NCBI RefSeq assembly: GCF_024204665.1
Contig: NZ_CP100355.1
Span: 434,001 to 498,000, forward strand
DNA: 64,000 nt
Reading direction: 5' to 3'
Source of the DNA: Natronosalvus rutilus
GTDB lineage: Archaea; Halobacteriota; Halobacteria; Halobacteriales; Natrialbaceae
Positions 43,051-64,000 of the stretch are shown here, piece after piece. The translations under genes and the position numbers were made by a program. Below the pieces are notes generated by a model that saw only the letters and a list, made by a program, of their open reading frames with translations, made no database searches and had not been told where the DNA came from. The stretch's first letter is position 1, and each line of letters begins with the position of its first letter.

Positions 43051-44562
43051 ATGAGTCGTATGGTAACGGGCGACGCTAACGAGCGTGATGTACAGACCCA
43101 TCGAACCGCGCGGAACGTCGTTCTCGTCGTTCTCGACACGGCGCGAAAGACGAGCGTCTCGCGGGAGACGATGCCGACGCTTACCCAGCTCGCCGAAGCG
43201 GGGACGACGTTCGAACGCGCGTTCGCGACGGCCCCCTGGACGCTCCCATCGCACGCGTCCCTGTTTACCGGCACCTACACCAGCGAACACGGCGCCCACG
43301 GCGGGCACACCTACCTCGATGAGAACCTCCGGACACTCCCGGAGGCCTTTCGAGACGCCGGCTACGAGACCGTCGGCGTCTCGAACAACACCTGGATCAC
43401 CGACGAGTTCGGCTTCGACCGGGGGTTCGACGACCTCCGTCGCGGCTGGCAGTACATCCAGTCCGATGTCGACATGGGCACCGTCGTTCGCGGCGAGGAC
43501 CTCCGCGAGAAACTCGAGGCGACGCGCGACCGCCTCTTCGAGGGAAACCCGCTGATCAACGCCGCGAACGTCCTCTACAGTGAAGTCCTCCAGCCGAGCG
43601 GCGACGACGGCGCCGACCGGACGACGGCGTGGATCGCCGACTGGCTCCACTCGCGAGAAGACGACCGGCCGTTCTTCCTGTTTTGTAACTACATCGAACC
43701 CCACATCACGTACGATCCCCCTCGAGAATTCGCCGAGCGATTCCTGCCCGACGGCTGGAACTACGAGGCGGCGACGGATATCCGCCAGGACCCCCGGGCC
43801 TACGACTGCGAGGACTACGATCTCTCCGAATCGGCGTTCGCCGCCCTCCACGGCCTCTACCGTGCCGAACTCGCCTACGTCGACAGCCAGCTCGAGCGCC
43901 TCCGGGACGCGCTCCAGTCGGCCGGCGTCTGGGAGGAGACGCTGCTGGTCGTCTGTGGCGACCACGGCGAGAACGTCGGGGACCACGGCTTCTTCGGCCA
44001 CCAGTACAACCTCTACGACACCCTGATCCACGTCCCGCTGGTCGTTCACGGCGGGGCGTTCACCGACGGCGGGCGACGGACGGACTTCGTTCAGTTGCTC
44101 GACCTGCCCGAGACGGTACTCGAGGCGACTGGCGTGTCGGATCCGGACCTCGAGGCTCAGAGCCGGGGGCGGTCGTTCCATCCCGACGCGATCACCGAGA
44201 CGAGGGACGCGGTGTTTGCCGAGTACGTCGCCCCCCAGCCGTCGATCGAACGCCTCGAGGCCCGGTTCGGATCGCTTCCAGAGCAGGTCTACACCTACGA
44301 CCGTCGGCTACGAGCGATCCGCACGGACCAGTACAAGTACGTCTGTGGCGACGACGGGTTCGAGTGCCTGCACGCTATCTCGAGCGATCCGGCCGAGACG
44401 GTCGACCTGTCCGACCAGAATCGCGACCGCGTCGGGGCGCTTCGCGAGCGACTCGAGGCACACTTCGAGGGCGTCGATACCGTTGAACACCCCGCCGAGG
44501 GAGCCGCTCCGGAGATGGCGGACTCGACGAAGGATCGACTAGCCGACCTCGGGTATCTCTAG
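43051..44562 (+). CDS. Sulfatase-fold enzyme with Thr at the catalytic position
   Basis: 503 residues, alkaline-phosphatase superfamily. Metal site residues: RNVVLVVLDTARK (Asp29), CGDHGENVGDHGFFGHQ and later conserved His. The stretch that in sulfatases is C/S-x-P-x-R, with the residue turned into formylglycine, is T64-L-P-S-H here, so it cannot be a formylglycine sulfatase. Thr as nucleophile is found in phosphotransferases such as LtaS, so a phospho-group hydrolase or transferase is likelier. No signal peptide, hence cytosolic. It ends in DRLADLGYL, like the next gene. Confidence 0.8.
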   Translation: MSRMVTGDANERDVQTHRTARNVVLVVLDTARKTSVSRETMPTLTQLAEAGTTFERAFATAPWTLPSHASLFTGTYTSEHGAHGGHTYLDENLRTLPEAFRDAGYETVGVSNNTWITDEFGFDRGFDDLRRGWQYIQSDVDMGTVVRGEDLREKLEATRDRLFEGNPLINAANVLYSEVLQPSGDDGADRTTAWIADWLHSREDDRPFFLFCNYIEPHITYDPPREFAERFLPDGWNYEAATDIRQDPRAYDCEDYDLSESAFAALHGLYRAELAYVDSQLERLRDALQSAGVWEETLLVVCGDHGENVGDHGFFGHQYNLYDTLIHVPLVVHGGAFTDGGRRTDFVQLLDLPETVLEATGVSDPDLEAQSRGRSFHPDAITETRDAVFAEYVAPQPSIERLEARFGSLPEQVYTYDRRLRAIRTDQYKYVCGDDGFECLHAISSDPAETVDLSDQNRDRVGALRERLEAHFEGVDTVEHPAEGAAPEMADSTKDRLADLGYL

Positions 44563-44835
44563 CTGGCTCGGCCCGGATCAGCGAAGGCGAGCACAAGCGC
44601 TGTTCGGCGTTTGGAGACGCATCAACCAGTGAAACAGTCAACCAGCGTGGGTGTTTAACCCGGTCGAGCTCTCGGCCAGATCGGTTTGGAGCGTGAATTT
44701 CAGGGTTTAACGCCACGATAATGAAGGGCGACCCGTGTATTGGAATCCGTATGAAGCCATTCCGAATCGACCCCTGTCCAGACTCAGTGGATGTGGACGG
44801 CCGGAAACACCAACTCATGGGGAGGCGGTGAGAGG

Positions 44836-46524
44836 ATGACAGGACGACACAATCGATCGAATGGGACATCGACGACGGACCGAACAACCGACGACTCAGG
44901 CCTCGACGTACTACTAATCGGTATCGACGCTGGCTGTCTACCGGTCTTCGAACGACTCTACGAGGAAGGACGCATTCCGAACCTCGAGCGACTCTGTACC
45001 GGGCCCGGGAACGTCTCGGCCCCGCTCGAGTCACAGATTCCGCCGTGGACGCCGAGCGCGTGGCCGTCGATTTTCACCGGCGTCAATCCCGGCAAACACG
45101 GCGTCGTCGGCTTCGTCGGTTACGACGGCTACGACTGGCACGTCTCCAGCAATGACGACGTCCAGGAACGCTCGCTCTGGTCACTCCTGGATCACCACGA
45201 TCGCTCGAGCGTCGTCGTGAACGTACCGGTGACCCACCCCCCAGACGAATTCGACGGCGCGATCATCCCCGGGTTCATCGGTCCGGAGAACCCGAAGTGT
45301 CACCCCGAAGGAACGCTCGAGGACGTTCGGGAAGCCATCGGCGAGTACCGCGTCTATCCATGCTACACTCGAGGCGACGAGTCGGTCTCCGACCGCGAGA
45401 AGATGGCCGAGTACCAGCGCCTCATTCGCATGCGCGGGGAAGCGTTCCGGTATCTCGTCGGCAAGCACGAGCCGGACTTCGGGTTCGTCCAGTTCCAGAA
45501 GACCGACACCGTCTTTCACGAGTTCGCGGGTGACCCCGACAAGGTCGAGACGGTGTACGAGGCGACGGACGACCAGATCGGGAAGATTCTGGAGGAGTGT
45601 GACCCAGACACCGTCTTCGTCGTGAGCGATCACGGGATGGGGCCGTACGAGGGCTACGAATTCCGGATCAACGAATTTCTCGAGGAGGCAGGATACCTCG
45701 AGACGACGACCAGCGGGAAGGGGATGCCCTCGTGGCAGCCCATGCGCCACCAGCTTCGAGAAGGGAAAGATTGTGACAGCTGGGAACCGACGATGGCCGA
45801 GCGAGCGGCCGCCGTCGCCGCGAGGTTCGGCATTACCGCCAGACGGGCTCGAATTGCCCTCGAGCGGGTCGGTCTCGCTGACCACGTTATCAAGTACGCC
45901 CCGCAGAACGTCGCTCGGACGGCCAACCGGCAGGTCGACTTCGCCGCCTCGCAGGCGTACGTCCGCGCTCGAACCGAACTCGGCGTTCGGATCAACCTCG
46001 AGGGGCGAGAGCCCAACGGCGTCGTCTCGCCGTCGGAGTACGACGCCCTCCGCGAGTCGTTGATGGCGGATCTTCGAAGCGTCGAGACGCCCGACGGGGA
46101 GCCAGTCTTCGAGACGGTCGCCCCTCGAGAGGAGTACTTCCACGGACCCTACGAGGAACACGCCGTCGACATCGTGACGATTCCTGCCGACTTCGAACAC
46201 GCGCTCTCGGAGGAATTGCTTGGCGAACAGTTCGGTCCCGTCGAACCGTGGAATCACAAACTCGACGGCGTCTTCGCCGCGAGCGGAGCAGGAATCGACG
46301 AGAACGCAGCGCTTGGATACCCATCCATCTACGACGTGGCACCGACCGTGCTAGCCGCACTGGGGATTCCCCAGAGCGATCGGATGGACGGGACGGTACT
46401 TCCAATCGTTGACTCGCTGGGAACCGAGGCGTATCCGACTGCCGCCGAATCGACGCCGGCAAATCGCGACGGTGCAGACGAGACGGTAACCGCTCGTCTC
46501 GCCGACCTCGGGTATATGAACTGA
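44836..46524 (+). CDS. Alkaline-phosphatase-superfamily phosphodiesterase
   Basis: 562 residues from ATG 44836, preceded by GGAGG (44821-44825), a good Shine-Dalgarno at 10 nt. Seen: VLLIGIDAGCLPVFERL (Asp31), nucleophile Thr72 in IPPWTPSAWPSIFTGVNPGK, SDHGMGP, and a later His-containing metal site. This is the type I phosphodiesterase/nucleotide pyrophosphatase branch. It is common in archaeal glycosylation clusters. No signal peptide. Ends in TARLADLGYMN, nearly the same as the upstream protein. Likely acts on a phosphorylated sugar or lipid carrier; this is inference. Confidence 0.85.
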   Translation: MTGRHNRSNGTSTTDRTTDDSGLDVLLIGIDAGCLPVFERLYEEGRIPNLERLCTGPGNVSAPLESQIPPWTPSAWPSIFTGVNPGKHGVVGFVGYDGYDWHVSSNDDVQERSLWSLLDHHDRSSVVVNVPVTHPPDEFDGAIIPGFIGPENPKCHPEGTLEDVREAIGEYRVYPCYTRGDESVSDREKMAEYQRLIRMRGEAFRYLVGKHEPDFGFVQFQKTDTVFHEFAGDPDKVETVYEATDDQIGKILEECDPDTVFVVSDHGMGPYEGYEFRINEFLEEAGYLETTTSGKGMPSWQPMRHQLREGKDCDSWEPTMAERAAAVAARFGITARRARIALERVGLADHVIKYAPQNVARTANRQVDFAASQAYVRARTELGVRINLEGREPNGVVSPSEYDALRESLMADLRSVETPDGEPVFETVAPREEYFHGPYEEHAVDIVTIPADFEHALSEELLGEQFGPVEPWNHKLDGVFAASGAGIDENAALGYPSIYDVAPTVLAALGIPQSDRMDGTVLPIVDSLGTEAYPTAAESTPANRDGADETVTARLADLGYMN

Positions 46525-46609
46525 CCGTTTCAGCCAGTGGAACAGTCGCTCGGTCTTATTTTACTCATAAGTATTGTCCCCGTCGCCAATAGGACAGGTA
46601 TACTGGCAC

Positions 46610-47269
46610 ATGGGCTTCGTAGCACACGTTTCACTGTTGCACCCGGACCTCGTTCTCGTACCCACGATACGGGCAAAGCCGGATGTGACGATACGATACG
46701 AGTACGGTGTCGTGACCGACGGGGGTGAACGGTGCTTTGTCTCGGTGTTTGGCGACGACCTCGAACGAGTCGAGGAGAGAATGGCCGACGACCACACCAT
46801 TTCGAATCCGGTCCGGGTAGCGACGTTCGAAGGGCGAGCGATTTACCAGCTATCCATCGAGACGAACCTCGAGATCGTTCCGTACCGATGTGCTGCCAGG
46901 GGCGTTTTCGTGTTCGAGACGATCAGCAACGAGAAGGGGTGGACAGTCCGGATACACGTCCCGGACCGGGAGGCGCTATCAGCGTTTCGCGAGTACTGTC
47001 GGTCCTGGTCGATCACGTTTCGAGTTAATCGGCTGTCCCAGTCGACGGCCGAGGACGACGACGACACCTACTTTCTCACAGAACAGCAACACGAGATTCT
47101 CTCGAAAGCGTACTACTCCGGATACTTCGAGATCCCGCGTCGTGCCTCCCAGAACGACCTGGCGAATCAGCTCGGAATCTCGACTTCGGCGGTCTCTCAG
47201 CGGATTCGCCGTGCCGTCGCCGAGCTGATCGAGTCGACCCTCGAGAACGATCGAACGCCCGATCGCTAA
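46610..47269 (+). CDS. Bat-type HTH_10 transcriptional regulator
   Basis: 219 residues from ATG 46610 (MGFVAHVSLLHPDLVL). N-terminal ligand-binding-like half; C-terminal HTH_10 (about 160-215): LTEQQHEILSKAYYSGYFEI, then PRRASQNDLANQLGISTSAV and SQRIRRAVAEL. Same family as bacterio-opsin activator Bat. It sits between the two phosphatase-fold genes and the beta-helix gene, so it probably controls the cluster. No receiver or PAS domain. Confidence 0.87.
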   Translation: MGFVAHVSLLHPDLVLVPTIRAKPDVTIRYEYGVVTDGGERCFVSVFGDDLERVEERMADDHTISNPVRVATFEGRAIYQLSIETNLEIVPYRCAARGVFVFETISNEKGWTVRIHVPDREALSAFREYCRSWSITFRVNRLSQSTAEDDDDTYFLTEQQHEILSKAYYSGYFEIPRRASQNDLANQLGISTSAVSQRIRRAVAELIESTLENDRTPDR

Positions 47270-47746: not shown

Positions 47747-49387
47747 ATGGCGAAACGAAGTGGTGCAAAATATTCGGGTACTCAACCTTTGGATTTCCAA
47801 AACGAATCCCAGGCAGGAGACGAGCACAACTCATCGAACAACGACGGACGTTCGCGGCGCGCATTTATGGGCGGGGTCGCCGCTGCCGGCGCTTCTCTCG
47901 TGGGAATGACCGCGAGTGCCAGCGCAGCAACGGGCACGTACAGTCACTATTACGACGAGTACAGCAACGTCATCGACGTCACCGACGCGGGTGCTGATAA
48001 CACGGGATCGAAATCGATCACCCCCGTGCTCGAGAAACTGCGCGCGGACGATACGCTGCTGGTCTTCCCCGAGGGCCGGTATTACATCGACGAACAGCTC
48101 CGGTTTACTGGCTTCGACAACTTCGGCATGGTTGGGGAGAACGCGACGCTCGTGCCCGCGAACTACTACAACTTCGACGGCCCGCAGTACCGGCTCTTCC
48201 GTCTCGGCGTCGGCTACAGACCAGGACGCCGTCTTCGTTTCGAGGGATTCGACATCGACCAGACGGCCCCCGACACCGGGATTCGCGTCATCGAGGCCCA
48301 CGTCTCCGATCGCCTCGAGGTGCGCGACATCAACATCAAAGGCCAGCACGACAGCGGGACGTGGGGACCAGGCCTGTTCAACGTCACTGATTCGAGCGGC
48401 TACGGCATCGTCGAGCGCTTCCGCGCCCCCCAGGGTGGCGAGTGGATCGACAACACCCCGACCGCCGGCGAACGCTGGCGCGGGCCGACCGGCATCCTGG
48501 CCAACCAGAACGCCGGCACCCTCGAGTTCAAACACTGTACGCTCGGTGCCTTCCCCGACAACGGTCTCTACGCCGCCGGCGGAAGCGGGAAAATCATCGT
48601 GAGTGGTGGCACCTACCGGAACAGTAACGGCGCGAACATCCGCGTCGGTGGCAACGGCAGCGAGATCAACTGGCCAAGCGTCAAAATCGACGACACCCGT
48701 CCGGAGGACGAGGGCCAGCGCGGAATCCGGATCGAGAACGGCAAGAACCTGCGTATCAAGGGAGCGGCCGTCGAAACCACCTCCCCGATGCCGACCAGTC
48801 ACGCGATCTCGGTGATGCCCACCTGTGACAGCACTCGAATCGAGCGCGTCCGCATTGACATGCAGGGCAACGACGTCAATCACGGCATCGTCGTCTCCCC
48901 CAACTGCGGGGAGGTCATCATCGTCGAGACGCAGATCAACCACGAAACCGCCGGCGGCTACCCGCTGTGGATCCGCAACACGAACGCGACCGACCGCGTG
49001 CTCGCCGAATACCTCACGATCACCGGCGAGGCAGGCGACGCCTCCGGATTCCGTGACGGCATCCGCGTCGAGCGAGACAACTGCCGGTTCAACGTGACCG
49101 AGGTCAACCAGTCCGCGCGCAGTGGCGCCACCCGAAACGCGATCACGTCGACCGCCGACGACCTGACGGTCTGGAAGAGTACCCTTCGCGCGAGCAAGTA
49201 CCCCTACGTCGACCTCGGAGACGACAATCTCGTCATGTCTTCCGATCTCGAATCGACCGGCGGCAAACAGGCGGCCTGCCTGTACGATTCGGTGAACGGT
49301 GTCTCGTTCAAGTACAACCGTCTCGTCAACGGCATCCGCGACTTCGGCGCGAGTAACGTCTACACCTACTCGAACACGTCATCCTGA
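47747..49387 (+). CDS. Tat-exported right-handed beta-helix protein
   Basis: 546 residues. The twin arginine (SRRAFMGGVAAAGASL, Arg37-38) and cleavage after ASASA near residue 60 give a Tat signal without lipobox, so the protein is released or held in the cell envelope. From residue 75 it begins like pectate-lyase-type folds (VIDVTDAGADNTGSKSI) followed by many short strands with Asn/Gly turns typical of a parallel beta-helix (for example IIVSGGTYRNSNGANIRVGG). A polysaccharide lyase or glycan-binding role is likely; catalytic residues are not evident. Confidence 0.85.
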   Translation: MAKRSGAKYSGTQPLDFQNESQAGDEHNSSNNDGRSRRAFMGGVAAAGASLVGMTASASAATGTYSHYYDEYSNVIDVTDAGADNTGSKSITPVLEKLRADDTLLVFPEGRYYIDEQLRFTGFDNFGMVGENATLVPANYYNFDGPQYRLFRLGVGYRPGRRLRFEGFDIDQTAPDTGIRVIEAHVSDRLEVRDINIKGQHDSGTWGPGLFNVTDSSGYGIVERFRAPQGGEWIDNTPTAGERWRGPTGILANQNAGTLEFKHCTLGAFPDNGLYAAGGSGKIIVSGGTYRNSNGANIRVGGNGSEINWPSVKIDDTRPEDEGQRGIRIENGKNLRIKGAAVETTSPMPTSHAISVMPTCDSTRIERVRIDMQGNDVNHGIVVSPNCGEVIIVETQINHETAGGYPLWIRNTNATDRVLAEYLTITGEAGDASGFRDGIRVERDNCRFNVTEVNQSARSGATRNAITSTADDLTVWKSTLRASKYPYVDLGDDNLVMSSDLESTGGKQAACLYDSVNGVSFKYNRLVNGIRDFGASNVYTYSNTSS

Positions 49388-49547: not shown

Positions 49548-51182
49548 ATGAACCGGAGTATTGCCAGCGGTGTCCTCTCAGTCGTCAGCGGCAAGGTCGT
49601 CGTTCTCGTGGTGACGGCCATTTCGACCCCGCTTCTGTACCGACTACTCGGAGTCTCCCAGTTCGGCGAATACTCGTTCCTGCTCTCGGTGTTCGCCATC
49701 TACATGATCTTCGTGAGTTCCGGAATCACCGACGGCGTTCGAAAGTTCCTCGCCGAGGATCGAGGTGCCGATAACTGGGAAGCCCACGTCGTCGGTTTCT
49801 ACTTTCGACTCGCAATCGTGTTCGCCATTACGGGCGCCGCACTCATGGTCGTCGCAGCGAGGTTCGGCCTCGTCTCGGCAGCGTTCGGTGAGCGGTTCGT
49901 TCCGTACTTTTACGTACTTGCCCTCCTCGTCATCACGGCCCAGTTCCGCGATTACGCTCGAAAGACGCTCATGGGCTTTGGCCTCGAGCGCTACTCCGAA
50001 CCGTTGAAGGTCCTCGATACGGTCGGCTTCGTCCTCATCGCGATTCCGCTCACGGCTCTCGGATTCGGCGTGGCGGGGGCGCTCGCCGGCCACCTGATCG
50101 CGAGTCTGTCGGTCGGGCTCGCCGGGCTGTACGTGATCAATCGACGACAGTCGCTGTCGAGTGTGTTCACCACGCCGTCGTCGCGATTTCCCCGGCGCGA
50201 GATGCTCACGTTCAACTCGATGAGCATCGTCCTCGTCTTCCTCCTGATGTCGCTGTATCACGTCGACATCATCATGTTACAGCGATTCAGGGTCAGTTCG
50301 GAGGTCGGGAACTACAAAGCGGCGCTCACGCTCGCGGAGTTCCTCTGGTTCGTCCCGCTCGCCTTGCAGACGGTGTACGTTCACTCGACGTCGGAACTCT
50401 GGTCACAAAACCGGTACCAGAAGATATCGTCGCTCGCCTCCCGAACGACTCGGTACACGTTCCTCCTGACGGCCGTCATGGCCATCGGCCTCGCCGCGCT
50501 GGCAGACGTCGCCGTACCGCTCTACTTCGGGTCCGACGCGGAACCTGCCGTCGAACCACTCATACTCCTGTTGCCCGGCGCACTCGGATTCGCACTTGCA
50601 CGCCCAATCCTCGCGATTTCACAGGGGAACGGACAGCTCCGGTATCCCGTTGCTTCGACCGGCGTCGCCGCCGGAATCAACGTCGTCCTCAACTTCCTGT
50701 TGATTCCCAGATTCGGCATGCACGGCGCGGCGGTCGCGACGAGCATCGGGTACGGATCGATGTTCGCCTTCCACATCGTGAGTGCTCGAACGATCGGATT
50801 CAACCCGCTCTCGGACGCACGACTCAGTCAGGCTATGGCGACCGCCGGACTCGCAGGGCTGCCGATCTTCGCGCTCGCAACCGCCATCCAGAACCCGTGG
50901 ATCGCGCTCGTCGTGGTTCCGCCGGTCGGACTCGCCATATTCGTCGGGTTCGCGATTCTGCTCGGTGCACTCGAGCCCTCCGAACCGTTCGAAATTCTCG
51001 CGATCGCGCCAGATCCGATCGGTTCCGTCGCGGGCAAGCTCTGTCGGCGCCTCCAGACGACGCCGGGTGAGTCACCGATCGCGATGGGACAGAGTCTGCT
51101 CGTCGCGATCGGACTATCGCTGCTGGTTTCCGGCCTCGTTCTCAGCCTGGTCGGCCCGGGAATCGGGATGGCCCACCCCTGA
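49548..51182 (+). CDS. Polysaccharide/oligosaccharide flippase (Wzx/AglR-like)
   Basis: 544 residues from ATG 49548, with GGAGG at 49538-49542. About 14 helices; N-terminus GVLSVVSGKVVVLVVTAIST followed by PLLYRLLGVSQFGEYSFL, the usual opening of the MATE-like polysaccharide exporter family. It would flip lipid-linked glycans from the inner to the outer face of the membrane. It is the only flippase seen in the window. Confidence 0.9.
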   Translation: MNRSIASGVLSVVSGKVVVLVVTAISTPLLYRLLGVSQFGEYSFLLSVFAIYMIFVSSGITDGVRKFLAEDRGADNWEAHVVGFYFRLAIVFAITGAALMVVAARFGLVSAAFGERFVPYFYVLALLVITAQFRDYARKTLMGFGLERYSEPLKVLDTVGFVLIAIPLTALGFGVAGALAGHLIASLSVGLAGLYVINRRQSLSSVFTTPSSRFPRREMLTFNSMSIVLVFLLMSLYHVDIIMLQRFRVSSEVGNYKAALTLAEFLWFVPLALQTVYVHSTSELWSQNRYQKISSLASRTTRYTFLLTAVMAIGLAALADVAVPLYFGSDAEPAVEPLILLLPGALGFALARPILAISQGNGQLRYPVASTGVAAGINVVLNFLLIPRFGMHGAAVATSIGYGSMFAFHIVSARTIGFNPLSDARLSQAMATAGLAGLPIFALATAIQNPWIALVVVPPVGLAIFVGFAILLGALEPSEPFEILAIAPDPIGSVAGKLCRRLQTTPGESPIAMGQSLLVAIGLSLLVSGLVLSLVGPGIGMAHP

Positions 51183-51421: not shown

Positions 51422-51865
51422 ATGAACGCTACCAGGAACGAACACACCGACGTGCTGCTGATCGAAGACAATCCTGGCGACATCCGCCTGATAGAGGAAG
51501 CCTTCGGGGCACACAGCGAGGACGTAACGCTCTCCGTCGTCCACGACGGTATCGCGGCGCTCGACTTTCTCTTTCAACGTGGGGAGTACGCCGACAGTCC
51601 CACCCCGGGGCTCGTCTTGCTCGACCTCAACCTCCCGCGGAAAAATGGCGACGAAATCCTCGAGGAGATGAAGAACGAACCGACGCTCCGGCGGATTCCG
51701 GTCGTCGTGCTCACCAGTTCACAGGCGCGCGAAGACGTGCTGCGGACGTACGACAAGTGTGCAAACGCGTTTCTCACGAAGCCGATCGACCCCAGCGCGT
51801 TCCTCGAGATTATCGAGTCAGTCAGGGAGTTCTGGCTGTCGACCGCTAGACTCCCTGACAGTTGA
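51422..51865 (+). CDS. Stand-alone response-regulator receiver
   Basis: 147 residues from ATG 51422. CheY-like: acidic pocket LLIEDN (Glu15-Asp16), phospho-acceptor Asp68 in LVLLDLNLPRKNGDE, Thr in VVVLTSSQ, Lys in NAFLTKPID. It is close to the Rcp1/phytochrome-type receivers common in haloarchaea. No output domain and no kinase nearby, so it should work by protein contact. Its presence inside the surface cluster suggests a regulatory link. Confidence 0.9.
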   Translation: MNATRNEHTDVLLIEDNPGDIRLIEEAFGAHSEDVTLSVVHDGIAALDFLFQRGEYADSPTPGLVLLDLNLPRKNGDEILEEMKNEPTLRRIPVVVLTSSQAREDVLRTYDKCANAFLTKPIDPSAFLEIIESVREFWLSTARLPDS

Positions 51866-53555: not shown

Positions 53556-54557
53556 ATGCCACGCGTTAGCGTTATCATCCCGACGTACAATCGGGCCGGC
53601 TCGCTCGTACGCGCGATCGACAGCGCGCTCGAGCAGACGGTCGACGACCTCGAGGTCGTCGTCGTCGACGACGGCTCGACGGACAACACCGGACTGGTCC
53701 TCGCCGACTACGACGACCCACGGGTTCGTCCGGTCGTCCACGCGACGAACCAAGGAGCGAACGTCGCTCGCAACACCGGCATCGAGCACGCTCGCGGCGA
53801 GTACGTCGCGTTCCTCGACTCTGACGACGAGTGGGACCCCACCAAACTCGAGAAACAGCTCGCGGCGATCGAGGACCGCGGCGACGACTGGATCGGTACC
53901 TACTGCGACACGGCGTTCGACCTCGAGGGGACCAGCGGCCGACTCCGGGGGGTCGCCGCGAGTCTCCTCTCGCGGACGGACGAACAGCCGACGATGGAGG
54001 GCAACGACGACCTGATCGGCGAGATCCTGTCCGACGGCGTCCAGCCAGGTGCCGGCTCGACGCTCCTCGTTCGAACCGACGTCGCCCGCGAGATCGGCGG
54101 CTTCGACGAGGACCTGGATCGCTTCCAGGATCCCGAGTTCTGTCTCCGCGTCCTCGAGCAGGGGAAACTCGCGTACGTGGACGAAAAGCTGGTCGTCCGC
54201 GAGGAGACGGGCCACCCGCCAGCGGACGTCGTCCGTCGAGCCGACCAGCAGTACCTCTCGAAACACGAGGACCTGGTCGAGCGCTACGAGGCCGAGGGCT
54301 ACGAGATTCGCTCGAGACACGAACTCGTCGTTGCGAAGCGGTACCTCGCGGAGGGGCGACTGCTCCGGGGAGCCTGGCACCTGCGAAAGGCCGCCGTCTC
54401 CGCCCGGCACTATCCTGGCCTCCTCTGGGCGACGGGATCTGGTGTCCGACGACGGCCGCTTCCAATCGTCGCCTCGCTCGCGCTAATCTTCGTTGCCAGC
54501 GCACTCGGCCGACGGACGCTCACGAACCGCGTTCTCGATCGGTCGTCGTCGCGGTAA
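53556..54557 (+). CDS. Family 2 glycosyltransferase
   Basis: 333 residues. GT-A fold: VSVIIPTYNRAGSLVRAID at the start, VVVVDDGSTDNT and the DxD metal motif as FLDSDDEWD, then the acceptor-side ED-like motif FDEDLDRFQDPEF. One hydrophobic segment near 300-320 may bind the membrane. It moves a sugar from a nucleotide donor to a lipid carrier or growing glycan. It is the only glycosyltransferase in the window and is divergent from the deacetylase-like lipoprotein gene. Confidence 0.92.
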   Translation: MPRVSVIIPTYNRAGSLVRAIDSALEQTVDDLEVVVVDDGSTDNTGLVLADYDDPRVRPVVHATNQGANVARNTGIEHARGEYVAFLDSDDEWDPTKLEKQLAAIEDRGDDWIGTYCDTAFDLEGTSGRLRGVAASLLSRTDEQPTMEGNDDLIGEILSDGVQPGAGSTLLVRTDVAREIGGFDEDLDRFQDPEFCLRVLEQGKLAYVDEKLVVREETGHPPADVVRRADQQYLSKHEDLVERYEAEGYEIRSRHELVVAKRYLAEGRLLRGAWHLRKAAVSARHYPGLLWATGSGVRRRPLPIVASLALIFVASALGRRTLTNRVLDRSSSR

Positions 54558-54715: not shown

Positions 54716-55928
54716 ATGGACCGAGGTTCACTCTCACGCCGATCGCTACTGACTGCTGCTGGCAGTTGTGCGCTGGCGAGTGCCGGCGTCGCATACGCGG
54801 AGTAAAGGTACCGCGAACGATGGAAGCACAACGACCGAGGAAACGGCTGTCACTCGAGACACCTTTCACTATCCTGTCTGGCACTGACTGGGAGACGACC
54901 GGGTACGTCGCGCAGGCGGCGGCCGACGGGCCGACGGTCGTCGTTCTCGGCGGTATACACGGGAACGAGGTTGCCGGATACACGGCCGCCGCCGAGATCG
55001 CCAACTGGGAGATTACGGCTGGAACGCTCGTGTCGATCCCCGAAGTGAACGCCGCCGCGATCGAACGCGGGACGCGAACCGACGAGGCGGGCGTCGACCT
55101 CAACCAGCAGTTCCCCGAAGGTGGGGAGCCACGAACCGACCTCGCCCGCGCGGTCTGGAACGTACTCCTCGAGTACGAACCCGACGCCCTCGTCGACCTC
55201 CACGAGTCGGTCGGGATCTACACCGGCGACGACGTCGACGGGGTCGAGCAGGCAATTTTCCACCGAGCGACGACGGGGCGGCGGCCACTACCGAGGAAGC
55301 GGCGGACCTCGTCAACCAGGACTACGTCGACGACGCCGACCTCGCGTTCCAGACGGACGGCTTCGCGGGGCCGGACGCCTCGCCGTCAGGACTGGTCGCT
55401 TAGAAGGCGGCGCGCGAACTGGAGATACCTGCGTTCCTGGTGGAGACGCTCTGGGTCGACGTCGACCTCGAGACGCGCGTCCAGTGGCATCTGGCGATCG
55501 TCGAGTCGCTCGTCGGAGACGGGCTCTTCGCTGCGGACGACGACGAAGGTGGCGAAGACGACGAGACCGACGTCGAGGACCCTGACGTCGACGAGGCGGA
55601 GGAACCCGAACCCGAACCGGAGCCCGATGCGGGCGAACCGGGTCGCGATCCGATCGACGAAATCCGAACGACGCCTGAGGATGCGACCGAGCGGACGTTC
55701 TCGGTCGACGATCCCGTCACGCTCGACGCCTCCTGTTCGCGTGCGCCGGAGGGTGAGATCGTTCGCTACGAGTGGAGTATCTACGGCGAGGGTAGCTTCG
55801 ACAAAACCGGACGAACGATCGACGTAACCATCAGCGGCGGGGGTGACTACCCAATCGTCCTCCGCGTCGATGATGACGGCGGACGAACCGATACCGCGGA
55901 GATCACGCTCTCGGCGGAGAGTTCCTGA
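54716..55928 (+). pseudogene. Broken Tat-exported M14/aspartoacylase-like gene with PKD end
   Basis: Three separate frames give one protein. Frame from ATG 54716: Tat signal SRRSLLTAAGS...SAGVAYA, ending at TAA 54803. Frame from about 54862: FTILSGTDWETTGYVAQ, zinc ligands in GGIHGNEVAGY, NQQFPEGG, LHESVG, up to ~55270. Then the frame shifts and gives TTEEAADLVNQDYVDDADL up to an in-frame TAG at 55401, after which KAARELEIPAFLVETLW, an acidic linker and a PKD-like domain run to 55928. At least two frameshifts plus one nonsense codon. The intact ancestor would be an exported succinylglutamate desuccinylase/aspartoacylase-type enzyme. Confidence 0.75.
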
Positions 55929-56169: not shown

Positions 56170-57534
56170 TCAGTTTCCGGACGTGCGCATCTTCCAGAGT
56201 TCGTCGAACGTGATGACCTCCACGTCGGACTCGTCGATGTACGCGAGCAACGCCTCGTAGTCCTCCTCGGACATGGTGTTGTTTGCGGAGAACTCGTGGA
56301 AGTTCAGGATCGTACACTGATTGTACGCGCCAGCGAGGTCCACACAGCGTTTGGCGATGTCGAGGTCGTGGCCGATCGTCCGGGGAAGTGCCAGCGGATC
56401 GAAGCCGTGGACGTTCGTGGTATTCACGTTTCCGGCCTGGTTGAAGCCGCCACAGTAGTGGTACTTCGAGATGTACTCGAGGCTGGTGGCGTCGTAGCTG
56501 TTGTGTGGGTAGACGATGAAATCCGCGCCCGTGAACTCGTGCTGGATGAGCCAGTTCTTGGCCCCCTTGAGGCGACCGTCCAGTTCGTCCTCGCTCTCGT
56601 ACTCGGCCATCCGGTCGTGTCTCCCGTGGGTAACGATCTGGTCGCCCGCTTCCTGTCGCTCTTTGAGCTGCGAGGTCGACATGATCCCCTCGCGAGCCTC
56701 CTCGGACCACCGGGGGACGACAGCCTGGACCGCATTGAACCCGTACTCGTCGTGAAGGGGGCTCGCTTTCTCGAGGAAGTCCAGGGACCCGTCGTCCCAG
56801 GATAACATCACGTATCCACTGTCTGCCGTCGGAACTGCACGCAGGTCGTCGACCCACACCTCCGCCTCCGGCATCGAGTGAAGCACCTGGATCTGGAGGG
56901 TGGCGATGTCGTTCATCATCGGCTCGATCGAGCTCTCCTCGAACACGCCGGGGCTCGAGCGGAACCACCCGACGTCGGGTGTGCGGTAGGTGATCTCCCG
57001 AAGGGAGTAGATTCGCTCGCTTCCGTAGGAGTCGACGACACGGATGTTGATGGTGATCTTGTCCGGGGTCGTCGTTCGCACGGCGAACGACAGGTCGAGA
57101 TCGGTCAGGTCGACGTCCGAGAGTTCACGTTCGACGACGATGTTTTCGCCCTCTCCCCCCGTGAGGCGGAGGCTCTGTGACCCGTCGAAGGCGATCTCCG
57201 TGTCCGCTTCGCCCGACCCCTGTACGACTTCCCACGGTCCGAGGTCCTCGAAGTCGTCGATGGAGTCGCCCGCCTGGCGGTACTCCTCGCGGCTGTTGTA
57301 CTCGGTCTCGAGCGCGGGTACGCCGTTTCCGTTCTCGTCTCCCTCGGACTCGTTACCGCCGTCTGAGTCGGAATCGGTGTCGTTACCATTGCCAGTGCTG
57401 TTCCCGTTCCCGTTCCCGTCCCCGTTACCTCTCACGGAGTTCAGGCGATTAGTACAGCCCGCGAGCCCGGCCGCCATCGCAGCCGCACCCGAGGTGGCCA
57501 GGAAGCGTCGCCGCGTCGTATTGTCTCGCGTCAT
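56170..57534 (-). CDS. Polysaccharide-deacetylase-like Tat lipoprotein
   Basis: 454 residues. Tat signal RRRFLATSGAAAM with lipobox LAGC (Cys27), Gly/Asn/Asp linker (30-75), beta-sandwich (about 95-235), NodB-type barrel (240-450). Active-site motifs present: SWDDGS (245-250), THGRHD (302-307; His-x2-His rather than the usual His-x3-His), YPHNSYD (342-348), NFHEF (411-415). It would remove N- or O-acetyl groups from an extracellular polysaccharide while anchored to the membrane. Confidence 0.85.
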   Translation of the reverse strand: MTRDNTTRRRFLATSGAAAMAAGLAGCTNRLNSVRGNGDGNGNGNSTGNGNDTDSDSDGGNESEGDENGNGVPALETEYNSREEYRQAGDSIDDFEDLGPWEVVQGSGEADTEIAFDGSQSLRLTGGEGENIVVERELSDVDLTDLDLSFAVRTTTPDKITINIRVVDSYGSERIYSLREITYRTPDVGWFRSSPGVFEESSIEPMMNDIATLQIQVLHSMPEAEVWVDDLRAVPTADSGYVMLSWDDGSLDFLEKASPLHDEYGFNAVQAVVPRWSEEAREGIMSTSQLKERQEAGDQIVTHGRHDRMAEYESEDELDGRLKGAKNWLIQHEFTGADFIVYPHNSYDATSLEYISKYHYCGGFNQAGNVNTTNVHGFDPLALPRTIGHDLDIAKRCVDLAGAYNQCTILNFHEFSANNTMSEEDYEALLAYIDESDVEVITFDELWKMRTSGN

Positions 57535-57813: not shown

Positions 57814-59541
57814 ATGAACAAGGAACTATTCGGCGTGTTTGGAAGCATCGAGGTGTTCGAACGCTACCGGTCGGTCGAGGCGTTCGACGACGTACTCACA
57901 GGAACGGAGATTACCGTCGGTATCAGAGACCACGATCTCGTCACTCCCGGCTGGAGCGCCCGATACGCCGACGAACGCGGTATCTGCGTCGTCTGGGGGG
58001 AAGCCTACGTTCCCGGCGACGAAACCAACGCGGCTCGCTGGCTGCTCGAGCAGTACGATTCCGAAGGCGAGGCAGCGTTCGACGTGCTGAACGGATCCTA
58101 CCTCGCCGTCGTCGACCCAGTCGATGACGACGCGTTCGTCGCGACCGACCCGGTTCGCTCGCGAGAGTGTTTCTACACCGACGAGCCCGGCGTCCGAACG
58201 TTCGGGACCGACGCGGCCAGCGTCGCTCAGACGGTCGACGCACCGTCGGTGAATCGAAACGCCGTCCTCGAGTACCTCCACCTGGGCGTGACGCTCGGGG
58301 AAAAGGCTGCCTTCGAGGAGCTCTCGCGACTGCCGATAGATAGCCGACTGACCCAATCCGGGGTAGAATCGTTCGAACGCTTCGTCTACCGACCCCACCA
58401 GTTCGATTACGTCGAAGAGCTGGCTAATCGGCTGAAACGGGCACTGGAACGCCGGTCGATCCTCCCGGGACGGAAGGGGCTGCTCCTATCAGCTGGCTAC
58501 GACTCCCGCATTTTCCTGCCGACGATACCTGACATCGAGCGCTGTTACACGGTCGGAACGTCGTCAGCCCAGGAAGTCACCGGCGCACGGCGCGTCGCGA
58601 CCCAGTACGGGGCCGACCACGTCGCCTTCGAACCCGACGAGCGATATCTGCTGGCCGACGAGTCGAAGACCCGGTACGGACAGGGGATCAAAGAGTCGCT
58701 CCACATCCACCACGCCGGGTACACCGACGAAATAAACGTCGATACGATGTATCACGGCTTACTCTGTGATACGTTCTTCCGGGGTCACTTCACCGCACAG
58801 GACACGATCGAACTCTTCGGGACGGAAGTGCCGCGAAACAGACTCGATCCGGACCCCAATCCAGTCGACTCCCTCCTCGGAAAGTTCGGGTACGACCGGG
58901 AGTCGAGTGAAGCCCTCGCCGAGCGCATCGCTTTCGACGAGGATCCCGAGCCGTTCGTCCGGGACGCGATCGCGGCGGAGTTCGACGCCGTCGGCGACCG
59001 CGCCGTGACGACCCAGAACTCGCTGACGTGCTGTGGCATCGCTAACCAGCCGTCGATCCCGTTTCACAATCACCTCGCGGACAACTTCTTCGCGTCGTTC
59101 CTCGCGGCCGACATCGAACTCGTCCGGTGGCACCTCGAGACGCCGCCGGCCCACCGAACGACCGAGACCTTCCTCGAGGCCTGCGAACGCCTCGATCCCG
59201 ACATTCTCCACCACCGTCCACCCGATCGACCACACGACGTGACCCTGCTCAACGAGGCCGAGCGGTTCGTCCGCCGGAAGACGCCGCTGCTCGAGCCGTT
59301 CGAACCGCCGTGGCCGGACCGCAGGTGGATCTTCGAACACTACGGGCTCGACCAAAAGCTCCTCCCTGATCTCGAGCACGTACACGGGCTACCGGTGAGA
59401 CACAAATTACGATTGAACGATCTCAACCGATGGATCGGCGCTTCGACCGACGACGCCAACAATGCCCGTTCGTGGCTTTACCGGGAGTCGGTCGCGGGAG
59501 ACGGGAGCGGCGACCGTTCGACGCGGCCACTCCCCCTGTAA
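57814..59541 (+). CDS. Asparagine-synthase-like protein without glutaminase Cys
   Basis: 575 residues from ATG 57814 (MNKELFGVFGSIEVFERY). N-terminal domain resembles the Ntn glutaminase fold of AsnB, but the catalytic Cys2 is Asn, so it cannot hydrolyse glutamine. The C-terminal synthetase domain keeps the PP-loop LLLSAGYDSR (223-232) that binds ATP. Members of this kind occur in surface-glycan clusters and may amidate sugars or carboxylates using ammonia. No membrane segment. Confidence 0.8.
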   Translation: MNKELFGVFGSIEVFERYRSVEAFDDVLTGTEITVGIRDHDLVTPGWSARYADERGICVVWGEAYVPGDETNAARWLLEQYDSEGEAAFDVLNGSYLAVVDPVDDDAFVATDPVRSRECFYTDEPGVRTFGTDAASVAQTVDAPSVNRNAVLEYLHLGVTLGEKAAFEELSRLPIDSRLTQSGVESFERFVYRPHQFDYVEELANRLKRALERRSILPGRKGLLLSAGYDSRIFLPTIPDIERCYTVGTSSAQEVTGARRVATQYGADHVAFEPDERYLLADESKTRYGQGIKESLHIHHAGYTDEINVDTMYHGLLCDTFFRGHFTAQDTIELFGTEVPRNRLDPDPNPVDSLLGKFGYDRESSEALAERIAFDEDPEPFVRDAIAAEFDAVGDRAVTTQNSLTCCGIANQPSIPFHNHLADNFFASFLAADIELVRWHLETPPAHRTTETFLEACERLDPDILHHRPPDRPHDVTLLNEAERFVRRKTPLLEPFEPPWPDRRWIFEHYGLDQKLLPDLEHVHGLPVRHKLRLNDLNRWIGASTDDANNARSWLYRESVAGDGSGDRSTRPLPL

Positions 59542-59807: not shown

Positions 59808-60317
59808 ATGCGTCTGACGCCGTCTTGGGTTCGTTCGTCGCGAGACGCGTCTTCGGGCAATCGGTCCGCCCCCGACGACAGCGCTTCACCCGCACCCGAG
59901 GTACCAATCTATTACGCGACCGACGAGTCGACGGATTCGTCGTCGACTCCGTCGGTCTCGGCCGCCTCGTTCGTGCCAGAATCCGATATGGCGCTCCTCG
60001 AGGAAATCGCCGAGTTAGAAGCACCTGTCACGGTCGATGAACTCGCGGACCACCTCATCTGGCCGGCTGATCCGCCGATCGAAACGTGGGCCGACGTCCA
60101 CGAACTCCTCTACGACGAACGGCTTCCCACACTCGAAGCACGTGGACTGCTGGCGTTCGATTCGGAAAAAGGAATGATCGAACACGTACGAGAGACCGAG
60201 GATCACGCCAAAGAAGTCTGGTTTTCTCGGCCGGTCCTCGGATTACTCTCGCTCGTCTTGCTCGCGACGATGCTGTTTCTCGTCTCGACCGTCGTCGTCA
60301 CGGCGACCCCGTTCTAA
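59808..60317 (+). CDS. Winged-helix-like protein with C-terminal membrane anchor
   Basis: 169 residues from ATG 59808. Ser/Asp-rich N-terminus; a helical segment with MALLEEIAELEAPVTVDELA then LPTLEARGLLAFDSEKGM, reminiscent of DUF7344-type winged helices but degenerate; and a hydrophobic helix VLGLLSLVLLATMLFLVSTV just before the C-terminus. It may be a membrane-tethered DNA- or protein-binding factor. It faces the DUF7344 gene downstream, tail to tail. Confidence 0.6.
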   Translation: MRLTPSWVRSSRDASSGNRSAPDDSASPAPEVPIYYATDESTDSSSTPSVSAASFVPESDMALLEEIAELEAPVTVDELADHLIWPADPPIETWADVHELLYDERLPTLEARGLLAFDSEKGMIEHVRETEDHAKEVWFSRPVLGLLSLVLLATMLFLVSTVVVTATPF

Positions 60318-60451
60318 CGTCCGTAGTATTCGTCGCATCTGACGGCCGCCTCAAGGTGATAGCGGCGGTCTTCTCGAGGGAAAGGAGCTGTCACAGAAAG
60401 GAGGGCCGTCGTCAGCACGGTGAGACGACCGTCGTCCGATCAACAGGGAGC

Positions 60452-61042
60452 TCAGTTAACGAATCGCCCGGCCGTGAGCACCGTGAACAACAACAAGATC
60501 AATGCGCTCAGGCCGATGCCAGAGAGCAGCGAGACGAACGGCAGTTCGAAGATCGCGCCCAGGAAGACCAGGTAACACAGCGCAGTCGCTCCCAGATAGT
60601 AATCGTCCCATCCGCCGCTCGCGGTGGGCTCTGCGGACTCCTCGTCCGTCGGTTCTCCAACCTGGAGGTACTGGTCGACGTAATCGGCCAGCGGCTCTCG
60701 CTCGACGACCCCCCGGTTCTTCTGGTAGGAGATAATACCGGCCTCGTCGAGTTTCGACAGGTGTGACTGGTAAAGCGGGATGTACACGCGCTGGCGCTGT
60801 GCGGACGTGAGCTGGTCGACAGTCGTCTCGTGTTCCCACGCGGCGACTTGCTCTGCAACGTCGCGCATGCGGACACTCCCCTCCGCATCGCGCAGATACT
60901 CAAGCACGAGCCGGCGACGTTCGTTTTGCAGCAGGTGAAAGAGTTCGTCCTTCGAAAATGGGACGTCCTCTTCCGGAGCATCGGCGCTCCCATCAGTCGA
61001 CTGCTCGTCCTCTTCTTCAGGGCTGATATATTCGGACTTCAT
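60452..61042 (-). CDS. DUF7344 winged-helix protein with two C-terminal helices
   Basis: 196 residues. Winged helix (about 30-125): HLLQNERRRLVLEYLRDAEG, MRDVAEQVAAWEHETTV, then QRQRVYIPLYQSHLSKLDEA and ISYQKNRGVV. Two hydrophobic helices follow (YLGATALCYLVFLGAIF and LSALILLLFTVLTAG). The second paralogue in this window (17237-17746) lacks the membrane part. Likely a membrane-anchored transcription factor. Confidence 0.8.
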   Translation of the reverse strand: MKSEYISPEEEDEQSTDGSADAPEEDVPFSKDELFHLLQNERRRLVLEYLRDAEGSVRMRDVAEQVAAWEHETTVDQLTSAQRQRVYIPLYQSHLSKLDEAGIISYQKNRGVVEREPLADYVDQYLQVGEPTDEESAEPTASGGWDDYYLGATALCYLVFLGAIFELPFVSLLSGIGLSALILLLFTVLTAGRFVN

Positions 61043-61433: not shown

Positions 61434-62417
61434 ATGAGCGACAACAACTGGTGGTTTCTCGATCTGGCCGCCGTCGTCGCGGCGACCGGATTCCTCTCGT
61501 TCGGCCTCCTGCTCGGCGTTCCAGGCGTCGCTCGAGTGGCACTCGCCCTGCCGCTCGTGTTATTCTTGCCGGGGTACGCGCTGATCGCCGTACTGTTCCC
61601 GGACGCGCCGAGCGACGACTACCAACCGTTCGATATCGACCGTACTGGGCTTCGAAACCCGCTTTTAGTCTCTGGCGGCCTGGCGTCCACGGAGCGGATT
61701 ATCCTATCAATCGTTGCGAGTATTTTCCTCGTTCCCGTGATTGCCCTCATTGCGAGCGTAGCCCCTGGGGGTATTGCTCCGGAAACGGCCATCCTCGGTA
61801 TTGCAGGATTGACAGGATTATTGACGCTTTTCGCGATCGTCGCACGGTACCGATGCGCACCCGATCGCCGATTCGCGTTGACGGTCGGTACGTCCGGTCT
61901 CCTGTTCAGTCGACCGAGTCGATCCACTGGCGTGTCCACGCGGCCATTCAACATCGCAATCGTCATCGCACTCCTGGTTCTCGTCGCGACGACCGGCTTC
62001 GCGGTCGCCAACCCACCGACTTCGGAGTCGTTCACGGAGTTCGCGTTGGAAACCGAACCGGTCACGGCCGATAGCGACACGGTGTACCAGACCAACTACG
62101 CAGCGGGCGAGGCCTCGGACGTGACCGTTTCGATCACGAACCACGAGGGAACGGAACAAACGTACACTACCGTGGTTCTTCTCGAGCGGGTGAGCTACGG
62201 GGAGTCGAACGCAACCGTCCAAGAACGGACACAGCTCACGAGCGAATCCGTTACGGTCGCCGACGGCGAACAGCGAAACCAGACGCTCGAGATGACACCA
62301 TCGATGCAAGGAGACGACCTCCGACTGACAGTGCTGCTGTACGAGGGCGAGCCGCCGTCCAACCCCTCGACCGAAAATGCCTACCGGGCGGTGCATGCAC
62401 CGATCGTGGTGGAGTGA
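61434..62417 (+). CDS. DUF1616 membrane protein
   Basis: 327 residues from ATG 61434. N-terminal half with four helices, including ALPLVLFLPGYALIAVLFPD, the DUF1616 hallmark, followed after another helix (IAIVIALLVLVATTGFAVAN) by an extracellular Ig-like part: VTVSITNHEGTEQTYTTVVL. DUF1616 proteins occur in archaeal glycosylation and archaeosortase-related neighbourhoods; mechanism unknown. The next gene starts at the base after its stop. Confidence 0.88.
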   Translation: MSDNNWWFLDLAAVVAATGFLSFGLLLGVPGVARVALALPLVLFLPGYALIAVLFPDAPSDDYQPFDIDRTGLRNPLLVSGGLASTERIILSIVASIFLVPVIALIASVAPGGIAPETAILGIAGLTGLLTLFAIVARYRCAPDRRFALTVGTSGLLFSRPSRSTGVSTRPFNIAIVIALLVLVATTGFAVANPPTSESFTEFALETEPVTADSDTVYQTNYAAGEASDVTVSITNHEGTEQTYTTVVLLERVSYGESNATVQERTQLTSESVTVADGEQRNQTLEMTPSMQGDDLRLTVLLYEGEPPSNPSTENAYRAVHAPIVVE

Positions 62418-62996
62418 ATGTGGCCGTGGGAGCATTTGCTGTTCGCGTACCTGCTGTACTCGCTCTACACCAACGTCGTTCGGAGACGCAGTCCGTCGGG
62501 GCCTGAAACGCTCGCGGTCGCCATTGGCTCACAGCTGCCGGATCTCGTCGACAAGCCGCTGGCCTGGACGTTCGACGTCACACAGACGGGGCTCTCCGTC
62601 GCCCACTCGATTTTCGTCGTTCCGTTCGTCTGCCTGGCAGTATACGTACTCCTTCATCGCTGGGAGCGTGGATCGGTCCGACAGGCGACTGCGTTCTCGA
62701 TCGCGATTCTGTCTCACCTCGCCGGGGACATCGTCTATCCGTGGCTCACGGGTGGCCACTTGAAGCCGAGAGCCGTCACGTGGCCGGTCGCTTCACCCCC
62801 GGCGGTCGATCAGGGGAGCTTCCTCGATCACGTCGTCATCTACGGCCACCGATCTCTCGAGCTGTTTCTCAGCGGCGAGACCCCCCAGGAGTTGACGGTG
62901 CTGCTCGGTCTGTTGGCCCTCACTGTCGTCCTGTGGGTGTACGACGGGGCGCCGGTCGCCGCCGACTGCTGGCGGTGGGTGTCCCGGCGAACGTAG
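62418..62996 (+). CDS. DUF457 membrane hydrolase-like protein, second copy
   Basis: 192 residues, starts one base after the DUF1616 stop and is therefore co-transcribed. MWPWEHLLFAYLLYSLYTNV, GSQLPDLVDKPLAWTFDVTQ, SVAHSIFVVPF and ILSHLAGDIVYPW match the copy at 20667-21227 almost motif for motif. Five helices with conserved His/Asp clusters. Enzyme activity unproven; its link to DUF1616 suggests a role in envelope assembly. Confidence 0.85.
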   Translation: MWPWEHLLFAYLLYSLYTNVVRRRSPSGPETLAVAIGSQLPDLVDKPLAWTFDVTQTGLSVAHSIFVVPFVCLAVYVLLHRWERGSVRQATAFSIAILSHLAGDIVYPWLTGGHLKPRAVTWPVASPPAVDQGSFLDHVVIYGHRSLELFLSGETPQELTVLLGLLALTVVLWVYDGAPVAADCWRWVSRRT

Positions 62997-63527
62997 TTCG
63001 ATCATCCGACCACACACGCTCGGAGCGTCTTCAGTCGTCGTCCGCTCACGTTCGACACTCGTCGTCCACACAGTATAGGGACGACGGGTAAGCGCTCGAG
63101 ATGACGCCCCACGGAAACGAACGGATCCACCTTGCAACGACGTCCGATGCGTGAGGAGGTCACACTGTTCGTCTATCAGAACGAAGATCGACACCTGTAC
63201 TGGGCGAGGGAGATGGAAGCGGCCAAACGCTTCTCACGTCTCGAATGAGGTTCGTCCGAAGCCGTCCGAAGCGCTCGTGGCACGATCTGTGGGCGGGTCC
63301 ACACCAGTCATACCGTCGCTCATGGACTCGAGGATGACTCGCTCCTGGACGAGTTCCACTCGAGCAGGCTGTGCGGTTCTCTCACCCTGGGCACGTACAC
63401 ACAACACGTTTGCGCTCGCTCGAGTAGTGGTTACTCGGGCGGTAGTGACTCAGTCGAAGCGACTCGAGCGCTCGTGACGTCGTACTCGAGTGAAAAGCCG
63501 CTGCGCGCAGACGGTGTGACCGCCCCG
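62997..63527. other. Intergenic region, weak small-ORF candidates only
   Basis: 531 bp between DUF457 and the partial gene at the edge. A TATA-like AGTATAGGG (63072-63080) precedes ATG 63101 by about 26 nt. Apart from the tiny frames described separately nothing is seen; several CTCGAG-rich stretches give spurious open frames. Confidence 0.4.
63101..63248 (+). other. Two overlapping tiny ORFs, possible frameshifted small gene
   Basis: ATG 63101 opens a 17-codon frame (MTPHGNERIHLATTSDA), and ATG 63147, overlapping its end by 8 nt, opens a 33-codon frame that starts MREEVTLFVYQNEDRHLYW and ends in FSRLE. Read together with a one-base shift they would form a ~50-residue protein. Not recognised; could be chance. 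Confidence 0.2.
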
Positions 63528-64000
63528 TCAGTTCGAAGCTGGCGACGGCGTACAGAAATTGACGTCGCCGCTATCGTACACCGTCGCCTGGGTCGGACGA
63601 CAGATCTGTGCGCGGTCGACCGACTTGAGTTGCGCTTGTCCGTTCTCGTCGACGAAGTAGGCCACGGACTCTGTCTGGCTGGTCCGGTAGACCGTGTAGT
63701 CGTGGTCGGCGACGCCGTCTTCGGGTAACGTCACGTACGACGAGGACGAGTAGGCGCCCGTCCGATCGAAGACCGTGAAGTACGGATGGTCGGTGTGTAG
63801 TTGCTGGTCGGCTCGAATTTCGGAACCAGCCGGGGAGCCGGTCATCTCGCCGATCGAGGAGACGGCGGTGAGTTCCGACTCGTCGTAGGCCAATTGCTCG
63901 TGTTGCTGTTCGAAGATCGGATTCTCGGTGTTACTCTCGGCGGCGAAGGCCATTGCCCCGGGGTAGACCAGGACCACCAGGAGTATGGTGACCATCGCGA
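63528..64000 (-). CDS. C-terminal end of a membrane protein, cut by window edge
   Basis: The frame is open to the right edge, so the N-terminus lies beyond 64000. Visible: a hydrophobic helix MVTILLVVLVYPGAMAFAAE and an extracellular tail of ~135 residues with FEQQHEQLAYDESELTAVSS, FTVFDRTGAYSSSSYV and a final Cys pair ICRPTQ ... NFCTPSP. It looks like the end of a large multi-helix envelope protein of the surface cluster. Convergent with DUF457. Confidence 0.6.
   Translation of the reverse strand, partial: AMVTILLVVLVYPGAMAFAAESNTENPIFEQQHEQLAYDESELTAVSSIGEMTGSPAGSEIRADQQLHTDHPYFTVFDRTGAYSSSSYVTLPEDGVADHDYTVYRTSQTESVAYFVDENGQAQLKSVDRAQICRPTQATVYDSGDVNFCTPSPASN

Follow-up and report, generated by a model that had tools for sequence, protein, structure and literature searches.

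In Haloferax volcanii, the Agl clusters for N-glycosylation bring together lipid-linked assembly, a nucleotide-sugar dehydrogenase (UGD), family 2 glycosyltransferases (GT2), a flippase and a membrane enzyme of the GT-C fold, all of which recur in the locus described here, and flippase-dependent clusters for exopolysaccharides (EPSs) are already known from haloarchaea as a kind. The synthesis of these EPSs is described as little understood (PMC9943897), and the polymers known include one with N-acetylglucosaminuronic acid in Hfx mediterranei and one with glucosamine and glucuronic acid (GlcA) in Haloterrigena turkmenica, a relative of the genera considered below (PMC5467301). Here we analyze a stretch of 64,000 nucleotides from Natronosalvus rutilus (the window; positions 434001-498000 of contig NZ_CP100355.1 in a 4.31-Mb haloarchaeal genome) and the conserved gene cluster whose left part it covers. 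We consider it probable that this cluster encodes nearly the whole of a class-wide pathway of haloarchaea for one acidic polysaccharide of the cell surface, which would be lipid-linked, exported by a flippase and finished by a GT-C enzyme.

The cluster spans ~31 kb, to ~73.9 kb in window numbering, which is carried on beyond the window end for coordinates >64000. It holds a flippase, several glycosyltransferases and a nucleotide-sugar enzyme in one conserved locus, the combination by which Wzx-type clusters are recognized, and a surface-polysaccharide pathway is indicated by the glycosyltransferase genes, UGD and glmS that lie downstream. Across 10 Natrialbaceae genomes the gene order is kept almost gene for gene over ~30 kb (35-99% identity, mostly >50%), running from a phosphodiesterase-like gene (PDE) through HTH_10, beta-helix, flippase, deacA, GT2a, AstE-PKD, deacB, AsnS, two winged helices, DUF1616, YdjM, GT-C, GT4, DUF354, UGD and DUF7343 to glmS. 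Individual genes are absent from some of these genomes, and the second GT2 adjoins either deacA or UGD, depending on the genome. The core is retained, with rearrangements, in further families, namely in Haloarcula, Haladaptatus, Halostella, Haloprofundus and on Haloferax plasmids. An order shared by so many genera lies far beyond chance. Its genes are as follows, with Tat denoting twin-arginine translocation and CBM a carbohydrate-binding module.

43060..44562, plus strand: sulfatase-fold (alkaline-phosphatase superfamily) protein, PF00884 (1.5e-40), without signal peptide; lineage-specific accessory
44836..46524, plus strand: PF01663 type I phosphodiesterase-like protein (PDE; 8.9e-32), cytosolic by sequence
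46574..47269 (start approximate), plus strand: BAT + HTH_10 regulator, PF04967 (1.1e-18) and PF15915 (1.4e-11); position conserved
47747..49387, plus strand: Tat-exported right-handed beta-helix protein, PF13229/PF12708, signal RSRRAFMGG..ASA; position conserved across loci, often duplicated
49548..51182, plus strand: Wzx/MurJ-like flippase, PF01943, PF13440 and MurJ; conserved
51422..51865, plus strand: stand-alone receiver domain, PF00072 (1.5e-16)
52114..53415, minus strand: deacA, Tat lipoprotein with galactose-binding-like and NodB-like domains, LAGC lipobox; no Pfam match of its own
53556..54557, plus strand: GT2 glycosyltransferase (GT2a), PF00535 (6e-39)
54716..55928, plus strand: pseudogene with Tat signal, AstE/aspartoacylase-like part and PKD domain, PF24827 and PKD_4 in different frames
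56170..57534, minus strand: deacB, Tat lipoprotein with CBM-like and NodB (Polysacc_deac_1) domains, PF01522 (1.8e-7)
57814..59541, plus strand: Asn-synthase-like ATP-dependent amide ligase (AsnS), TIGR01536 (6.6e-11 over 77-272)
59808..60317, plus strand: winged helix with C-terminal membrane segment (DUF7344-like), weak PF24035 match (0.0039); position conserved
60452..61042, minus strand: DUF7344 winged helix with membrane segments, PF24035 (6.6e-30); position conserved
61434..62417, plus strand: DUF1616 membrane protein, PF07760 (5.2e-81)
62418..62996, plus strand: YdjM/DUF457 membrane protein, PF04307 (9.5e-11)
63528..65507, minus strand: GT-C-fold membrane glycosyltransferase, 659 aa, crossing the window end with its 3' part (63528..64000) inside
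65500-66471, minus strand, beyond the window: GT4
66477-67544, minus strand, beyond the window: DUF354 GT-B-like glycosyltransferase
67545-68588, minus strand, beyond the window: GT2b, a GT2 of the dolichol-phosphate-sugar-synthase-like (DPM-like) type
68588-69994, minus strand, beyond the window: nucleotide-sugar dehydrogenase (UGD)
70666-71148, beyond the window: DUF7343 winged helix
72108-73916, beyond the window: glmS

Past ~75 kb the genes, one of them for an RFC-type AAA protein, have a housekeeping look. A preliminary description, made from the window alone, had proposed a surface-glycan cluster likely to continue past 64 kb, and both proposals are supported. Neither of the outcomes that would have spoken against them was seen: the genes occur together in other genomes, and the GT-C gene, three glycosyltransferases, UGD and glmS were found up to 73.9 kb. 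Every gene that it named was confirmed at about the position given. Its gene list was incomplete, lacking the broken AstE/PKD gene (54716-55928) and the large membrane protein that runs from 63528 on the minus strand out of the window.

When contigs were scanned using aligned GT-C sequences, 66 named loci were gathered, with neighbors counted only within 10 kb on each side (Natrinema, Natronorubrum, Natrialba, Natronococcus, Haloterrigena, Halostagnicola, Halostella, Haloarcula, Halosimplex, Haladaptatus, Haloprofundus, Halobellus, Halovivax and others). The neighbors of the GT-C gene most often included DUF1616 (55), DUF354 (52), GT4 (51), AsnS (50), UGD (50) and glmS (49). Among 392 genomes of the order, listed strong matches, down to the score limit for which the counts hold, place AsnS in 127, the GT-C gene in 136 and both in 125 (Fisher p 2e-86, kinship ignored); the two lie ≤45 kb apart in 111 genomes, at a median of 5.7 kb. 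The tightest block among the loci is the minus-strand operon UGD-GT2b-DUF354-GT4-GT-C, and in 16 genomes AsnS is found without a GT-C gene close by. Both observations would suit a view of the locus as two units that merely adjoin, the minus-strand glycan operon at 63.5-70 kb and, at 43-63 kb, surface and regulatory genes unrelated to it. That view is extremely improbable, however, as AsnS, DUF1616, GT2a, the flippase and the beta-helix gene accompany the operon across families, even where it is rearranged or plasmid-borne.

The enzyme that would complete the polymer was examined through an AlphaFold2 model of its Natrinema gari orthologue (mean pLDDT 85), which has the GT-C fold. Foldseek matched the model to AftA, AglB, STT3 and ArnT, and VIA-align gave Z scores of 25.2 with yeast STT3 (rmsd 5.3 over 450 residues), 22.3 with AglB (4.9 over 440) and 19.7 with ArnT (6.5 over 417). 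A PDB sequence search with the protein returned no match. The alignments, with the best scores for oligosaccharyltransferase (OST)/STT3 and AglB within a Z range of 19-25, are what would be expected if the cluster made a protein-linked glycan. It would then form a second pathway of N- or O-glycosylation, in which the GT-C enzyme, as oligosaccharyl- or glycosyltransferase, would modify proteins of the S-layer or others at the surface. Haloarchaea can run more than one glycosylation pathway, and PMT_2, the Pfam family that the largest number of GT-C members touch, is reached by 13 of the 46. Despite the fold alignment with AglB, however, the OST motif WWDxG occurs in none of the 46 members; ArnT and lipid-sugar transferases have the same fold (Z ~20), and exported deacetylases and a beta-helix enzyme are better suited to a free or lipid-bound polymer. 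A protein-linked product is therefore unlikely. A motif of the form G-x-D-x-W-[TS]-H is carried by 44 of the 46 members, and fold alone is no proof of function. The enzyme is therefore probably a lipid-sugar-using transferase, which would most likely polymerize the glycan or attach it.

The polymer itself probably contains an N-acetyl-hexosaminuronic acid, as judged from the cluster's enzymes. The best equivalog model for UGD is TviB, a UDP-GlcNAc 6-dehydrogenase, at 371 bits under a cut-off of 592, ahead of the UDP-ManNAc dehydrogenase (237 bits) and AglM (178 bits) models. As the preliminary description had noted for the window's own copy, AsnS lacks the glutaminase Cys; the N-terminal Cys2 of class II asparagine synthetases (AsnB) is found in 0 of 70 orthologues, some of whose start sites the simple gene finder had placed wrongly. 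The ligase thus cannot obtain ammonia from glutamine in the usual manner. The nucleotide loop of the synthetase, of the SAGYDS type, is retained. A PDB sequence search with AsnS gave no match. Plasmid versions of the cluster in Haloferax mediterranei (pHME505) and two strains of Haloferax gibbonsii (pHG2 and pHGLR2) add glmU, an acyltransferase and a second UGD, as well as glmM in H. gibbonsii only, and genes for a DegT aminotransferase and a Gfo/Idh/MocA oxidoreductase lie near these copies, a combination that would be expected for amino-uronic acids. The last two genes recall the Wlb set for 2,3-diamino-uronic acids and hint that the Haloferax lineage uses a diamino-uronic acid. An ATP-grasp gene is also present in the Haloferax copies.

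The same Cys-less ligase could instead be read as joining an amino acid to the glycan in amide linkage, which AstE/PKD would remove again, so that the product would be an amino-acid- or peptide-bearing wall polymer comparable to the glutaminylglycan of Natronococcus occultus. The ATP-grasp gene of the Haloferax copies is in keeping with such a polymer, as are the AstE-family hydrolases that accompany AsnS in Natrialbaceae and Haloferax. However, a peptide-forming step has no direct sign in the cluster, and AstE/PKD is broken in the source genome and in its close relative G113 and missing from several other copies, making this alternative very unlikely. In the source genome AstE/PKD is split over three frames, which separate its Tat signal from the catalytic and PKD portions, and has an in-frame TAG; the orthologue is whole in the close relative G112 (408 aa) and intact in other genera. 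The disruption in two of three close relatives looks like a recent loss of one cluster function.

The products of deacA and deacB are both Tat lipoproteins (LAGC) that align with each other along the whole length of deacA, and in a model of deacB (pLDDT 82) a NodB-like domain comes after a galactose-binding-like (CBM) one. Most of the deacB clade keeps the CE4/NodB-type motifs WDDG, HGxH and NFH, with a His-pair spacing unlike the canonical HxxxH and with the second His absent from one distant member. In the Natrialbaceae orthologues of deacA that were inspected these motifs are lost, with LFDGTLESH, ARPRTG and FE or FD at the corresponding sites and, in a few, single substitutions, FDST and FDAT among them. 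Relatives of deacA in the clusters of other families, together with one Natrialbaceae outlier, retain FDD (TFDD) or WDD, SHP and H, and in the tree the degenerate clade is monophyletic (support 100/99) beside these catalytic-type relatives. The residues that took their place are conserved in turn, which suggests that the protein gained another role, such as binding, rather than decayed; by its motifs, deacA is a conserved pseudo-deacetylase in Natrialbaceae and offers a clean case of an enzyme repurposed within one clade.

The sole full-length solved relative of this pair is gp31, the turret head protein of virus HFTV1 (8qpg), which matches them with a profile E value of 1.6e-44 and the deacB model over its full length in Foldseek (3.6e-30). 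Like deacA and deacB, gp31 combines a galactose-binding-like with a NodB domain; unlike them it is a virion protein with a Zn site, at ~25% identity. In the study that describes it, binding and deacetylation of host glycans are proposed as its role, and homologues are reported to be lacking from other viruses of haloarchaea (PMC12494034). The published HFTV1 receptor is an S-layer glycoprotein (PMC12542753). The host, Haloferax gibbonsii LR2-5, carries the cluster on pHGLR2, and 13 of the 20 best cellular matches of gp31 lie near AsnS. An annotated deacetylase was not seen in the stretches read of the Haloferax plasmid clusters, pHGLR2 included. Descent of gp31 from deacA or deacB was considered and is not shown, the protein forming a long branch outside both clades in the tree, and the virus link, with the cluster's glycan as a candidate HFTV1 turret ligand, is for that reason only a lead. 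Distant relatives of the pair also occur among the minor tail proteins of Gordonia phages, so that the fold may be found on virions beyond HFTV1. A bolder extension, which we hold to be quite unlikely, is that an unseen, class-wide amidated amino-uronic surface polymer is kept by the CBM-deacetylase pair, with one arm turned, in Natrialbaceae, into a dead receptor for glycans, and is read by viruses such as HFTV1 via a captured family member on the capsid turrets. The turret protein gains cellular relatives from surface-glycan clusters and a specific host glycan as candidate ligand.

Gene content, order and conservation, the GT-C fold and the motif loss of deacA are direct observations, and the pathway that we infer from them, in its sugars, in every reaction and in the final location of the product, would run as follows. 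Inside the cell, glmS would supply the amino sugar, the TviB-like dehydrogenase would make UDP-(N-acetyl)hexosaminuronic acid, and GT2a, GT4, DUF354 and GT2b would assemble the repeat on a polyprenyl carrier, dolichyl (di)phosphate, with the Cys-less AsnS amidating the uronic acid. The flippase would turn the lipid-linked unit outward, where the GT-C enzyme, using a lipid-linked donor, would polymerize it or transfer it to an acceptor. Outside, deacB would take off N-acetyl groups, deacA, catalytically dead in Natrialbaceae, would serve as the glycan-binding partner, and the Tat-exported beta-helix protein would trim or epimerize the chain. HTH_10 and the three membrane-tethered winged helices may regulate the pathway. 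Several points weigh against this proposal. A clear Wzy was not found in the cluster, and the GT-C enzyme could be a ligase instead of a polymerase. As regards specificity, UGD scores under every curated equivalog cut-off, and glmS is also a housekeeping gene that may mark the cluster edge. Besides the 16 genomes with a separate AsnS, the presence of PDE, deacA, deacB, AstE and the beta-helix gene varies from family to family. As the locus is near complete and constant in order in many genera, including the genetically tractable Haloferax, the polymer should be accessible by deletion.

The emphasis of the preliminary description, which saw the cluster as centered on phosphatase-fold enzymes and paired deacetylases, needs revision. 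Among the loci inspected, the sulfatase-fold gene and the receiver stand at the cluster position only in the closest relatives (G112 and G113), and thus the centering is not right; in the protein (43060-44562) the formylglycine motif C/S-x-P-S/A-R was not found, T-L-P-S-H being in its place. PF01663 orthologues (68-95% identity) hold the same place in most Natrialbaceae copies and are missing from many class-wide ones. The pairing of deacetylases has to be modified, deacA having become a pseudo-deacetylase in Natrialbaceae; of the chemistry proposed, lipid-linked assembly and amide formation are plausible, and phosphate chemistry lacks direct evidence. The PF01663 protein may act on lipid-linked or phosphorylated intermediates; it had no match in a PDB sequence search. 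Its gene directly adjoins the GT-C gene in Halogranum, Haloarcula amylovorans, Halocatena and Halalkalicoccus, in clusters from which most of the remaining genes are absent, and PF01663 (62-66% identity) beside GT-C, mostly with a DPM-like GT2, appears to be a separate compact cluster type. Elsewhere the source genome has a PF01663 paralogue (52%; C1:1757238) and a distant deacA paralogue (C1:1780249), ~23 kb apart. The three membrane-tethered winged helices, two of the DUF7344 type and one DUF7343, are conserved cluster members and possible membrane-signal regulators for a surface glycan.

A description of the conserved locus was not found in the literature searched, which left out most subscription papers, including the Haloferax mediterranei EPS study, and the locus may be called undescribed, as it had been at the outset, within that literature. 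Among its closest counterparts are the acidic EPS genes of Haloarcula hispanica (HAH_1661-1667 and AepG/HAH_1206), which, in the available portions of the reports, likewise include glycosyltransferases, a polysaccharide-biosynthesis protein and an arylsulfatase-fold gene (PMC5467301, PMC9943897). AepG, a DolP-sugar-synthase-like GT2 that makes dolichyl phosphate (DolP)-GlcA, resembles GT2b, and a DolP-glucuronosyltransferase of this kind is thus demonstrated in Haloarcula (PMC9943897). In contrast, those portions, compared by description, do not list an AsnS-like ligase, DUF1616, DUF354, the GT-C enzyme or the deacetylase pair among the H. hispanica EPS loci. Compared with the Agl system of Haloferax volcanii, UGD and GT2b of the present cluster fall far under the AglM and AglJ cut-offs, and the GT-C enzyme lacks WWDxG. 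The Haloferax plasmids pHME505, pHG2 and pHGLR2 share HTH, GT2, DUF1616, YdjM, UGD, DUF354, GT-C (annotated as GT39), glmS, AsnS and AstE with the cluster, with a flippase nearby.

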